A stretch of DNA of 64,000 nucleotides from Ottowia testudinis (lineage in GTDB: Bacteria; Pseudomonadota; Gammaproteobacteria; Burkholderiales; Burkholderiaceae_C), in contig NZ_CP071796.1 of NCBI RefSeq assembly GCF_017498525.1, positions 3,596,001-3,660,000 of the forward strand. The letters run 5' to 3'. The translations under genes and the position numbers were made by a program. Below, piece after piece: positions 57,271-63,879 of the stretch. Numbering within the stretch: the stretch's first letter is position 1; every line of letters starts with the position of its first letter. The notes beneath the pieces were generated by a model that did no database searches, was not told the DNA's origin, and saw only the letters and a program-made list of their open reading frames with translations.

Positions 57271-58392
57271 TCAGCGCGCGCGCCGTGCGCGCACCGCATC
57301 GGACAGCACTCGCAAGACAGTCTGCGTGCTGTCCCAGCCGATGCAGGCATCGGTGATGCTCTTGCCATATTCCAGCGCGGTGACGTCGTCCTTGCCTGGC
57401 GTGAATTTCTGCGCGCCGCCGTGAATGTGGCTTTCCACCATCACGCCGAACACCCCGCGCGAACCTGCCGCGATCTGCGCCGCCACGTCGCGCGCCACGT
57501 CGATTTGCTTTTCGTGCTGCTTGCTGCTGTTGGCGTGGCTGCAGTCGACCATCAGCGAGGCCGGCAATTTGGCGGCGGCCAGCTCCAGGCACGCGGCCTT
57601 GACGCTTTCGGCGTCGTAGTTGGGCGCCTTGCCGCCGCGCAGAATCACGTGGCAGTCCTTGTTGCCATCGGTATGCACGATGGCGACCTGGCCGTTCTTG
57701 TGCACCGACAGGAAGTGATGCCCGCGCGCCGCCGCCTGAATCGCGTCCGTCGCGATGCGGATGTTGCCGTCGGTGCCGTTCTTGAAGCCGATCGGCGCCG
57801 ACAGGCCACTGGCCAGCTCGCGGTGCACCTGGCTTTCGGTGGTGCGCGCGCCGATGGCGCCCCACGCAATCAAGTCGCCAATGTATTGCGGCGAGATGAC
57901 GTCCAGAAACTCGCTGCCCGCGGGTAAACCCAGGCGGTTGATGTCGATCAGCAGCTGGCGGGCAATCCGCAAGCCCTCGTCGATGCGGTAGCTTTCATCA
58001 AGGTAAGGGTCATTGATCAGGCCTTTCCAGCCGACGGTGGTGCGCGGCTTCTCGAAGTACACGCGCATGACGATTTCGAGCGTGTCGGCGTACTCATCAC
58101 GCAGCGGCTTCAGACGGCGCGCGTAATCCAGCGCGGCCGCCGGATCGTGAATGGAGCATGGCCCGATCACGGCCAGCAGGCGATCGTCCTTGCCGTTGAT
58201 GATGCGGCGAATGGCCTGGCGCGTGTCGGTGATGAGCGATTCGACCTTGGTGTTGCGAATCGGGAAAAAGCGGATCAGATGCTCAGGTGGCGGCAGGACG
58301 GTGATGTCCTTGATGCGCTCGTCGTCGGTTTGGCTGGTGCGCTCCGGCGCGGTGGGACGGAGATCGAGGCTTTGTACGGCTTTGGCGTTCAT
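57271..58392 (-). CDS. 3-deoxy-7-phosphoheptulonate (DAHP) synthase, type I
   Basis: 373 residues. First step of the shikimate pathway, condensing PEP and erythrose 4-phosphate. Motifs: AVIGPCSIHDP (PEP site), RVYFEKPRTTVGWKGLINDP, GARTTESQVHRELASGL, PIGFKNGTDG, SHANSSKQ and GKSITDACIGWDST. This is the AroF/G/H class; which aromatic amino acid feeds back cannot be read reliably. Upstream lie a leader peptide gene with clustered aromatic codons and a terminator, suggesting attenuation. Confidence 0.96.
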   Translation of the reverse strand: MNAKAVQSLDLRPTAPERTSQTDDERIKDITVLPPPEHLIRFFPIRNTKVESLITDTRQAIRRIINGKDDRLLAVIGPCSIHDPAAALDYARRLKPLRDEYADTLEIVMRVYFEKPRTTVGWKGLINDPYLDESYRIDEGLRIARQLLIDINRLGLPAGSEFLDVISPQYIGDLIAWGAIGARTTESQVHRELASGLSAPIGFKNGTDGNIRIATDAIQAAARGHHFLSVHKNGQVAIVHTDGNKDCHVILRGGKAPNYDAESVKAACLELAAAKLPASLMVDCSHANSSKQHEKQIDVARDVAAQIAAGSRGVFGVMVESHIHGGAQKFTPGKDDVTALEYGKSITDACIGWDSTQTVLRVLSDAVRARRAR

Positions 58393-58433: not shown

Positions 58434-58467
58434 AAAAAACCGCCGGGCGGGCTCGCTGCGGCGGTTT
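58434..58467 (-). terminator. Attenuator terminator before DAHP synthase
   Basis: On the reverse strand AAACCGCCG and CGGCGGTTT form a stem with a GC-rich loop, followed by TTTTTT. It ends 42 bases before the DAHP synthase ATG, after the leader peptide stop. Confidence 0.9.
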
Positions 58468-58495
58468 GGTCGGGAAGTCGCGTTGGTTTTTGCTT

Positions 58496-58573
58496 CTAGC
58501 AACTCGCCTCTCGTCCGCCGGGGACCGAGAACCAAAAGTAAAAGCCGAAGGCGACAGGGGATGTATTTATCAC
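58496..58573 (-). promoter_or_regulatory. Aromatic-rich leader peptide (attenuation)
   Basis: A 25-codon frame starting GTG at 58573 and ending TAG at 58496-58498. Its residues 9-15 are FGFYFWF: six of seven are Phe, Tyr or Trp. A hairpin (CTCGGTCC / GGACGAG, 58510-58529) follows at once. CGGCGG in that hairpin can also pair with CCGCCG of the terminator's first arm, giving an antiterminator. The start codon is uncertain: no ribosome-binding site is visible, and the frame is open further upstream. This is the layout of ribosome-mediated attenuation. Confidence 0.8.
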
Positions 58574-58649
58574 GAATTGAATGTACCACAGGCTCTTGAC
58601 GGCGCTCCCCAAAGAACCGTTCGGGGCGGCGCTTTCAACGCCCATTACT

Positions 58650-58716: not shown

Positions 58717-60177
58717 TCAGCCCGTGCCACCCACCGTCAACCCTTCGATCCGCAACGTGGGTTGACCGACGCCCACCGGCACGCTCTGCCCCTCCTTGCC
58801 ACAGGTGCCTACCCCTGAGTCAAGCCGCATGTCGTTGCCGATCATGGTGATCTTCTTCAGCGACTCCGGCCCGCTGCCGACGATGGTGGCGCCTTTCACC
58901 GGATATTGAATCTTGCCGTTTTCGACCCAAAACGCCTCGCTGGCCGAGAACACGAACTTGCCACTGGTGATGTCGACCTGACCGCCCCCGAAGTTGGTCG
59001 CGTACAAGCCCTTTTTTATGCTGGCCACGATCTCGCGCGGGTCGCGGTCGCCGCCCAGCATGTACGTGTTGGTCATGCGCGGCATCGGGATGTGGGCATA
59101 GCTTTCGCGGCGGCCGTTGCCTGTCGGCTTGACCTTCATCAGTCGCGCATTCATGGCGTCCTGGATGTAGCCTTTCAGAATGCCATCCTCGATCAGCACG
59201 TTGCGCTGCGTGGCGTGCCCTTCGTCGTCCACGTTCAAGCTGCCCCGGCGATCGGCCAGCGTACCGTCGTCAAGCACGGTCACACCTTTGGCCGCCACCC
59301 GCTGACCGATGCGGCCGCTGAAGGCACTCGAACCCTTGCGGTTGAAGTCGCCCTCCAGGCCATGACCCACCGCCTCGTGCAACAGCACACCCGGCCAGCC
59401 CGGCCCAAGCACCACGGTCATCTCACCGGCGGGGGCGGGGTGCGAATCGAGATTCGTCAATGCGGCGCTGACCGCTTCGTCCACATAATGCCTCACCATG
59501 GCATCGTCAAAGTACGCCAATCCGAAACGGCCGCCGCCGCCGAACGATCCCACCTCGCGCCGCCCGTTCTGCTCTGCAATCACCGTCACCGACAAACGCA
59601 CCAAGGGTCTGACGTCGGCGGCGAGGGTGCCATCGAGCCGCGCGATCAGCACCACGTCATATTCACTCGCGAGTCCGGCCATGACCTGAACCACACGCGG
59701 ATCCTTCGCACGAGCCAACTGCTCAACTTTTTCGAGCAGAGCCACCTTGGCCGTGCTGTCGAGAGACCCAATCGGGTCATGGGCTCCATACAACGCTCGT
59801 GCCCCAGCCACCCGCCGCGCGCCAATCTTGACCCGGCCCCCTTTCGACGCGTGACCAATCGCGCGCACCGTCTGCGCCGCATCGGTGAGCGAAGCCATGG
59901 AAATGTCGTCGGAATACGCAAATGCCGTGCGTTCACCGGCCACCGCCCGCACGCCGACGCCTTGGTCTATCGAAAAGCTGCCGGTCTTGACAATGCCCTC
60001 CTCCAGACTCCAGCCCTCCGAGCGCGTGTACTGAAAGTACAGATCCGCGTCATCCACTTTCTGCTCGGCGATCAACGCCAACACCTTGGTCAATCTGGCT
60101 TCGTGCAGGCCAAATGGCGTCAGCAGCAGGTCAGAGGCGGTCGACAGGCGTTCGATGGTGATGTCTCTGGAAATCAT
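58717..60177 (-). CDS. tldD: Metalloprotease TldD
   Basis: 486 residues from the ATG at 60177; nine further codons to 60204 are possible. Zinc motif HEAVGHGLEGD (HExxxH, about 257-267). With TldE/PmbA, usually encoded elsewhere, it forms a protease that processes modified peptides such as microcin B17 and degrades CcdA. Conserved segments GVGVRAVAGERTAFAYSDD and GTCGKEGQSVPVGVGQPTLRI are complete. It is the last protein gene before the rRNA operon. Confidence 0.95.
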   Translation of the reverse strand: MISRDITIERLSTASDLLLTPFGLHEARLTKVLALIAEQKVDDADLYFQYTRSEGWSLEEGIVKTGSFSIDQGVGVRAVAGERTAFAYSDDISMASLTDAAQTVRAIGHASKGGRVKIGARRVAGARALYGAHDPIGSLDSTAKVALLEKVEQLARAKDPRVVQVMAGLASEYDVVLIARLDGTLAADVRPLVRLSVTVIAEQNGRREVGSFGGGGRFGLAYFDDAMVRHYVDEAVSAALTNLDSHPAPAGEMTVVLGPGWPGVLLHEAVGHGLEGDFNRKGSSAFSGRIGQRVAAKGVTVLDDGTLADRRGSLNVDDEGHATQRNVLIEDGILKGYIQDAMNARLMKVKPTGNGRRESYAHIPMPRMTNTYMLGGDRDPREIVASIKKGLYATNFGGGQVDITSGKFVFSASEAFWVENGKIQYPVKGATIVGSGPESLKKITMIGNDMRLDSGVGTCGKEGQSVPVGVGQPTLRIEGLTVGGTG

Positions 60178-60254
60178 GGGCAGATTGTAGGCGTCGTGAA
60201 GCACCGCAGAAGTCGACAGACATCAATAGGGGCAAAAGAAAGTTTTGCCCAAAT

Positions 60255-60297: not shown

Positions 60298-60412
60298 GCC
60301 TGACAATGTCCTACTTTCACACGGGAATCCGCACTATCATCGGCGCTAAGGCGTTTCACTGTCCTGTTCGGGATGGGAAGGAGTGGTACCACCTCGCTAT
60401 GGTCATCAGGCA
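60298..60412 (-). rRNA. rrf: 5S ribosomal RNA
   Basis: About 115 bases. On the reverse strand it begins GCCTGATGACCATAGCGAGG, contains CACTCCTTCCCATCCCGAAC, and ends with the complement of the first bases (TCAGGC). Boundaries within a few bases. Confidence 0.95.
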
Positions 60413-60535
60413 TAACTTTTTGCCATTCAGCCAACACCTAAGCGCTTGGCTAAACGACCAATTCATAGAGCAAATCAGCTTATTTTGAATGCGTCACTTG
60501 GCATAACACCCTTGATCTATCGATCAAAGTTATAG

Positions 60536-63402
<2,867 letters not shown>

Positions 63403-63706
63403 CTATAACTTTGACGTTTCTGACGAAACTAAAATTATCTCAAGGACTGATGTCAGGTCTTTCACCTGACGCGTTATGCCGCAATTGAGCTTTCGCTCTA
63501 ATTACTCGAATTTCAGACAAGCTGATATTCGTTTTGACGCAATCAAAAAATGTTGCCAACGGCACGGTGAGCCATGACGCTCTTTCCGCTGACAACGCTG
63601 ATTCGACTCTATGAATTTTTAAAGAACAGCCGTTAGTCTTGCGACTCATTATTGGCAATGCCAATATCAAAACGACCAACTTGGCCGCTTTGATATGGAC
63701 AATGAA
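63403..63706. other. Internal spacer between 23S and tRNA-Ala
   Basis: About 300 AT-richer bases with no gene. They presumably include the processing stems of pre-23S RNA and the antitermination signals common in this spacer. Confidence 0.6.
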
Positions 63707-63782
63707 TGGTGGAGGATGACGGGATCGAACCGACGACCCCCTGCTTGCAAAGCAGGTGCTCTCCCAGCTGAGCTAATCCCCC
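63707..63782 (-). tRNA. tRNA-Ala (TGC)
   Basis: 76 bases including CCA. Reverse strand starts GGGGGATTAGCTCAGCTGGG; anticodon loop TTTGCAA between CTGC/GCAG arms gives anticodon TGC. T arm GGTTCGATCCC. Confidence 0.97.
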
Positions 63783-63802
63783 AGGTAATCTTGCTGAGGG
63801 AA

Positions 63803-63879
63803 TGGTGGGTCTGGTTGGTCTCGAACCAACGACCCCCGCCTTATCAAGACGGTGCTCTAACCAACTGAGCTACAGACCC
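63803..63879 (-). tRNA. tRNA-Ile (GAT)
   Basis: 77 bases including CCA. Reverse strand starts GGGTCTGTAGCTCAGTTGG; the anticodon loop TTGATAA gives GAT. T arm GGTTCGAGACC. Confidence 0.97.

Follow-up and report, generated by a model that had tools for sequence, protein, structure and literature searches.

A conserved aromatic-codon leader and candidate transcription attenuator upstream of DAHP synthase in Burkholderiales

The region upstream of DAHP synthase

A short reading frame with the core FGFYFWF precedes the DAHP synthase gene in the window (the whole 64,000-nucleotide stretch of Ottowia testudinis DNA that was analyzed), raising the question of whether translation of these aromatic codons controls transcription of the gene behind them. 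Ribosome-mediated attenuation is a classical form of control, and the trp and phe attenuators of enterobacteria consist of a leader peptide containing codons for the pathway product, alternative hairpins, and an intrinsic terminator. All three have counterparts here, but the gene is a different one, up to three amino acids would be sampled, and there is no Shine-Dalgarno sequence. We propose, with a probability of about 0.9, that the leader controls DAHP synthase by ribosome-mediated transcription attenuation. Its parts recur across genomes, and from this anatomy we infer both the switching and its dependence on tRNA charging.

The leader frame comprises 25 codons, and its core has six aromatic codons in seven, a density reached by no other stop-free run of seven codons in the six frames of the 64-kb window (Table 1). 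A frame this rich in codons for products of the pathway is what would be predicted for an attenuator, as is the putative intrinsic terminator between the leader and the gene. The 5′ arm of a local hairpin, P1, starts at the last aromatic codon, and P1 takes in part of the antiterminator arm, which is complementary to a segment of the terminator 5′ arm. The terminator loop is 13 nt and a further 41 nt separate the end of the terminator from DAHP synthase. An earlier sequence-only reading had singled out the six aromatic codons in seven, the hairpin behind them, the terminator before the structural gene, the CGGCGG/CCGCCG complementarity, an extended −10-like element, and the lack of a ribosome-binding site, and each of these was found on direct inspection. 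The terminator did not appear in the output of a terminator scan with a loop limit of 8 bases, which listed one plus-strand terminator instead. Folded as a whole, the leader of the window was only modestly stabler than its shuffles (z = −1.19, with 23 of 200 shuffles at least as stable). Beyond tldD, the minus strand of the window carries 5S and 23S rRNA and two tRNAs (60298-63879).

Table 1. Features of the leader region and its neighbors, in window coordinates
Feature	Position	Strand	Basis
Leader frame, hairpin, and intrinsic terminator	58434-58573	minus	read from sequence
Extended −10 promoter element TGGTACATT	58580-58588	minus	read directly
−10 hexamer TACATT within TGGTACATT	58580-58585	minus	
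GTG, predicted start codon and predicted transcript start (+1)	58571-58573	minus	
Leader peptide frame VINTSPVAFGFYFWFSVPGGREASC (stop codon TAG, 58496-58498)	58496-58573	minus	conserved in relatives
Control codons F G F Y F W F	58529-58549	minus	
Hairpin P1 (1:2, pause/anti-antiterminator)	58508-58531	minus	local fold
Antiterminator arm CGGCGG	58515-58520	minus	covariation
Intrinsic terminator stem-loop AAACCGCCG/CGGCGGTTT	58437-58467	minus	
Terminator 5′ arm AAACCGCCG	58459-58467	minus	
CCGCCG in terminator 5′ arm	58459-58464	minus	
Terminator 3′ arm CGGCGGTTT	58437-58445	minus	
T-run	58434-58439	minus	
DAHP synthase, type I (aroF/G/H family), proposed regulated gene	57271-58392	minus	Pfam PF00793, TIGR00034
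tldD, upstream neighbor of the leader	58717-60204	minus	

Conservation of the leader and the amino acids it samples

Relatives of the DAHP synthase were collected from 110 loci, 108 of which had an upstream region long enough for comparison (L110 has the same sequence as L050, and the upstream sequences of L027 and L109 were too short to judge whether a leader is present). Stop-free stretches with at least six of nine codons for Phe, Tyr, or Trp were found on the sense strand of 83 of the 108 upstream regions, and of 62 of the 73 where the DAHP synthase is at least 75% identical to that of the window. Such stretches were found in none of the 108 antisense strands and in 2 of 540 dinucleotide shuffles. 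A comparison among relatives had been suggested as a check on the sequence-only reading, and it bore that reading out for the codons, which recur far above controls, and also for the antiterminator and terminator stems, which covary (see below).

A covariance model (R1) was built from 87 distinct upstream regions. The genome of the window contains one clear copy, scoring 92.5 bits, and the next match elsewhere in that genome scored 16.8 bits; the genome's other DAHP synthase has no leader visible by eye in the 400 nt upstream. R1 matched 194 of 200 genomes of the family (137 of 141 genera) and 111 of 399 genomes of the order, in both cases nearly always once per genome. Matches lay directly upstream of DAHP synthase in 105 of 114 cases in the order (the window, 29/29, and 75/84); the positions of family matches were compared with DAHP synthase solely where these were also among the order or homologue loci. 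In the class, R1 matched 11 of 229 genomes: three are of the family of the window, two are of another family and have the match ahead of DAHP synthase, and for the other six the fetched stretch contains no DAHP synthase. The nine remaining order matches and these six class matches were rejected as DAHP synthase leaders; one R1 match, L222, we take by eye to be a FabF-like C terminus followed by a terminator.

No leader was found before DAHP synthase in Cupriavidus (L037 and L042), Polynucleobacter (L038, L040, and L041), L105, or several more distant loci. The Cupriavidus and Polynucleobacter enzymes are related ones, with 75-78% identity, and possibly these are losses. In the Polynucleobacter loci, tldD lies directly upstream of DAHP synthase. 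Farther afield, DAHP synthase in a record titled as an Anaerolineae MAG (L074) is preceded by an aromatic leader, MSRYFSFFSWYGYF, and by a long hairpin that lacks a T-run; this possibly reflects an independent origin or a binning error. In three further loci (L221, L223, and L224, from genomes G288, G227, and G318), a Phe/Tyr/Trp leader, M[IN]TFSAVFNAYFYWYRSS, precedes a frame encoding something other than DAHP synthase. Two of these loci, L221 and L224, show a terminator on reading, and Pfam gave no match for the frame in L221.

For analyses of the leaders themselves, a set of 182 was assembled. The terminator listing left out L024, L035, L041, L054, L055, L061, L076, and L110 (the duplicate of L050), and no terminator was found in L047 or L074; L024, L035, and L047 were restored by hand to the leader set, and the duplicates L145 and L143 were dropped. 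Nine of the other 74 R1 matches with DAHP synthase downstream (L148, L175, L182, L197, L202, L208, L213, L217, and L220) were dropped for want of an in-frame ATG or for having fewer than five aromatic codons in nine. These leaders were selected for having a leader, and occurrence rates were taken from the R1 genome searches instead. Over the nine core positions, Phe, Tyr, or Trp is encoded at 72% in frame vs 24% and 19% in the other frames, a figure biased upward because the core was placed where aromatic codons are densest; the antisense and shuffle counts given above are the fairer control. Synonymous codons are mixed in the cores (TTT 491, TTC 276, TAC 158, TAT 134, and TGG 125).

The sequence-only reading held that all three aromatic amino acids are sampled together, matching the first enzyme of the common pathway. 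This holds for close relatives: Phe, Tyr, and Trp all occur in 60 of the 67 set members that precede a DAHP synthase with at least 75% identity to that of the window, vs 12 of the 23 below 75%. It does not extend across the order, where the 182 leaders comprise 109 with Phe, Tyr, and Trp, 59 with Phe and Tyr, 8 with Phe, and 6 with Phe and Trp. With all three found in 60/67 leaders close to that of the window and in 109/182 overall, pooled sampling is the norm among close relatives without holding for the order as a whole.

Alternative pairing and the proposed switch

The antiterminator and terminator helices are both present in 179 of the 182 leaders. The exact motif GGCGG within the antiterminator arm is missing from 3 of the 87 regions and from 12 leaders of the larger set, six of which have GGTGG. 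Its reading frame relative to the leader peptide is 0, 1, or 2 in 54, 2, and 28 of 84 leaders, respectively, and a motif that falls in differing frames is therefore kept as RNA and not as peptide. After exclusion of two leaders lacking terminator anchors and the 12 lacking exact GGCGG from the 179, 165 leaders were available for covariation counts at the base beside GGCGG. The combinations in antiterminator, terminator 5′ arm, and terminator 3′ arm include C/G/C (68 leaders), T/A/T (45), A/T/A (2), and G/C/G (1). The pair between the antiterminator and the terminator 5′ arm is kept in 128 of 165 (119 Watson-Crick and 9 G-U) and broken in 37; shuffles that ignore relatedness gave a mean of 67 and a maximum of 88 Watson-Crick pairs. 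T/A/T occurs mainly in Burkholderia-type loci and A/T/A in two Oxalobacteraceae-type loci (named loci), so the changes were not all one event.

The same signal was found in a MAFFT alignment, A1, in which cells changed on both sides of a pair numbered 21 for each helix (shuffled means 3.5 for the terminator and 5.7 for the antiterminator); neither count was reached in any of 500 shuffles, relatedness again being ignored. Because some rows of A1 (e.g., L034) have GGCGG in the wrong place, pairs were counted again with the motifs as anchors. Overlap between the antiterminator and the terminator 5′ arm was found in 177 of 182 leaders. The two helices thus appear to be mutually exclusive, with covariation in support, as would be expected of an attenuator of the trp/phe type.

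The position of P1 is conserved. In 149 of 177 leaders, 8-14 nt separate the start of the last aromatic codon from the antiterminator arm, and local folds begun at that codon have two or more arm bases paired in all 177. P1 is no stabler than dinucleotide shuffles (mean z of −0.17 over 177 leaders; +0.55 in the window), and its covariation is weak: a score of 10.06 against a permuted mean of 9.57 and maximum of 10.2, or 10.21 against 9.65 and 10.19 in 124 nonredundant leaders. Ribosome stalls were modeled with a 13-nt footprint counted from the first base of the A site. Stalls at the last, second, third, and fourth codon positions back in the core left the antiterminator fold in 146, 174, 176, and 172 of 177 leaders, respectively; a stall eight codons upstream still left it in 151 of 177, and the modeled stalls discriminate little. 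Minimum-energy folds without a ribosome preferred the antiterminator in 83 of 177 leaders, that of the window included, and P1 must therefore win by forming first. Equilibrium folding was rejected as proof of switching. The trp attenuation model depends on the order in which hairpins form during transcription, and the case for a switch here would likewise be made by co-transcriptional order and covariation, and not by energies.

The events at the leader would then be as follows. Transcription would start at or a few bases from the leader start codon, and the ribosome would bind straight at the 5′ end, with no Shine-Dalgarno sequence involved. While every aromatic tRNA is charged, the ribosome would cross FGFYFWF to the stop codon, where CGGCGG would be covered or held in P1, so that the CCGCCG/CGGCGG terminator would form and transcription would stop about 140 nt from its start. 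When Tyr-, Phe-, or Trp-tRNA is short, the ribosome would stall in the Y-F-W-F codons directly before P1 and block it; CGGCGG would then pair with CCGCCG, no terminator would form, and DAHP synthase would be transcribed. If this is correct, the environmental and host-associated bacteria of a large order would place the first step of the shikimate pathway under pooled end-product control exerted through tRNA charging.

The start of the leader, alternative explanations, and known systems

Six bases separate TACATT from GTG in the window, and the predicted +1 therefore falls on or next to this codon; no Shine-Dalgarno (SD)-like 4-mer (AGGA, GGAG, or GAGG) was seen by eye before it. A point overlooked in the sequence-only reading is that the leader start ATG of relatives is ATA in the window (58570-58568), with GTG one codon upstream. 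Initiation would therefore take place at GTG (+1) or at an unusual AUA, and GTG may have taken over as the start codon. GTG is also found at the corresponding place in L234, a relative from outside the order; L233, of the same family as L234, has ATG.

The suspicion that the leader peptide is leaderless was strengthened by the larger set. Of the 182 leaders, 119 have their best −10 match 6-9 nt ahead of the start codon, the boxes are often TG-extended (e.g., TGCTACATT), and strong extended −10 elements at 5-9 nt occur in 52.7% of the 182 vs 0.66% of shuffles. An SD-like 4-mer precedes 8 of the 182 leaders, compared with 82 of 108 DAHP synthase starts. The −10 spacing and the rarity of SD-like sequences suggest that the leader is probably leaderless. 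Leaderless mRNAs account for 4.67% of primary starts in Cupriavidus metallidurans, a member of this order (PMC7563307), and have been reported in Burkholderia cenocepacia (PMC4603805).

An attenuator that is not leaderless, with a start farther upstream and a weak 5′ UTR carrying the leader, would be in keeping with a consensus promoter scan of the window, in which no −35/−10 pair was found for the leader. It would also fit the 18 named Burkholderia-type (9) and Oxalobacteraceae-type (9) leaders, where the best −10 lies 25-39 nt before the ATG in 17 and at 40 nt in the other; these seem, from the spacing, to carry a short 5′ UTR. Given the −10 positions and scarce SD-like sequences elsewhere in the set, we regard this explanation as unlikely for the window. 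A sensor that reads the peptide in place of tRNA charging, for instance through arrest of an aromatic-rich nascent chain, is very improbable: the aromatic core is kept and Tyr or Trp is missing from some relatives, as such a mechanism would permit, but residues swap among Phe, Tyr, and Trp, length varies, and no fixed arrest-like sequence was seen by eye in the listed leader peptides. We give next to no credence to a terminator that merely ends the tldD transcript behind an incidental aromatic frame, since, although tldD adjoins upstream on the same strand and a TldD match was found in the fetched flank of 50 of 60 leader loci among L001-L080 (a count in which L024 and L047 were scored as having no leader though both have one), the other 10 kept the leader with no TldD match in the fetched flank, the three Polynucleobacter loci have TldD and no leader, and the aromatic codons and covarying antiterminator would be left unexplained.

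Several systems resemble the proposed attenuator in part. The Rfam model Phe_leader (RF01859) had no match in the window at its gathering cutoff of 55; its best scores among seven loci of relatives were 25.8 and 24.9 bits (L001 and L057). No Rfam family covers the window leader at gathering score, and only weak matches in those seven loci were obtained. In Corynebacterium glutamicum, a putative leader with Phe-Tyr-Phe has been described for the DAHP synthase gene aroF (PMC4046766); this organism belongs to the Actinobacteria, and the portion of that article on the leader mentions neither Trp nor covariation. The same article cites a title on an ilvBNC leader peptide made without a ribosome-binding site. 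The uORFC-13-1 motif before aroF in Acholeplasma also places an upstream frame and a terminator before DAHP synthase, but a ribosome-binding site and one or more Phe codons are part of its model; it is described with 24 representatives from Acholeplasma and sources of unknown organism, in an account that mentions an Escherichia coli aroF attenuator as a hypothesis (PMC8632094). The idea of an attenuator for DAHP synthase is common to Shewanella aroF, in the Gammaproteobacteria, where the predicted attenuator is listed as sensing Tyr-tRNA (PMC2659441). In E. coli, control of the aromatic genes is ascribed to the TyrR and TrpR proteins, with attenuators acting at pheA and trpE (PMC11878033). No description of the present leader family was found in Rfam 15 or in the literature searched, a key 2004 comparative study lying outside that search. 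Attenuation before DAHP synthase has thus been proposed earlier elsewhere, and what appears to be new here is a leader that is probably leaderless, is widespread in the order, and would pool the sensing of aromatic amino acids.

A broader proposal, which we advance tentatively and consider doubtful, is that these leaders make up a class of leaderless attenuators found throughout the order, with a switch that can be tripped by any one of as many as three amino acids. A start codon at +1 would take a ribosome once the RNA emerges, coupling translation to transcription without a 5′ UTR; the 140-nt terminated RNA would be a leaderless mini-mRNA that could act in trans, and the sensed set (Phe/Tyr/Trp, Phe/Tyr, Phe/Trp, or Phe) would have been retuned between lineages. 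The leaders offer a natural series, apparently leaderless in most of one family and seemingly with a 5′ UTR in others, and with differing amino acid sets, that would be useful for studying the coupling of leaderless translation to transcription and shifts in the amino acids that attenuators sense.

A leaderless attenuator leader is known from Sinorhizobium meliloti, where trans action of the trpL RNA, rnTrpL, and of its peptide, peTrpL, has been reported; as described there, it differs from the present leader in involving Trp only, in preceding trpE(G), and in belonging to the Alphaproteobacteria (PMC7298713). A second leaderless-looking frame was seen upstream of trpE at L230 (G000:C1:3919778-3921184, minus strand). 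No T-run terminator was spotted there by eye; the arrangement is TGCTACACT, 7 nt, and then an ATG opening the frame MFSSRNVISPLGAAAQGAWPWRKPAR, in which two Trp codons are visible by eye.
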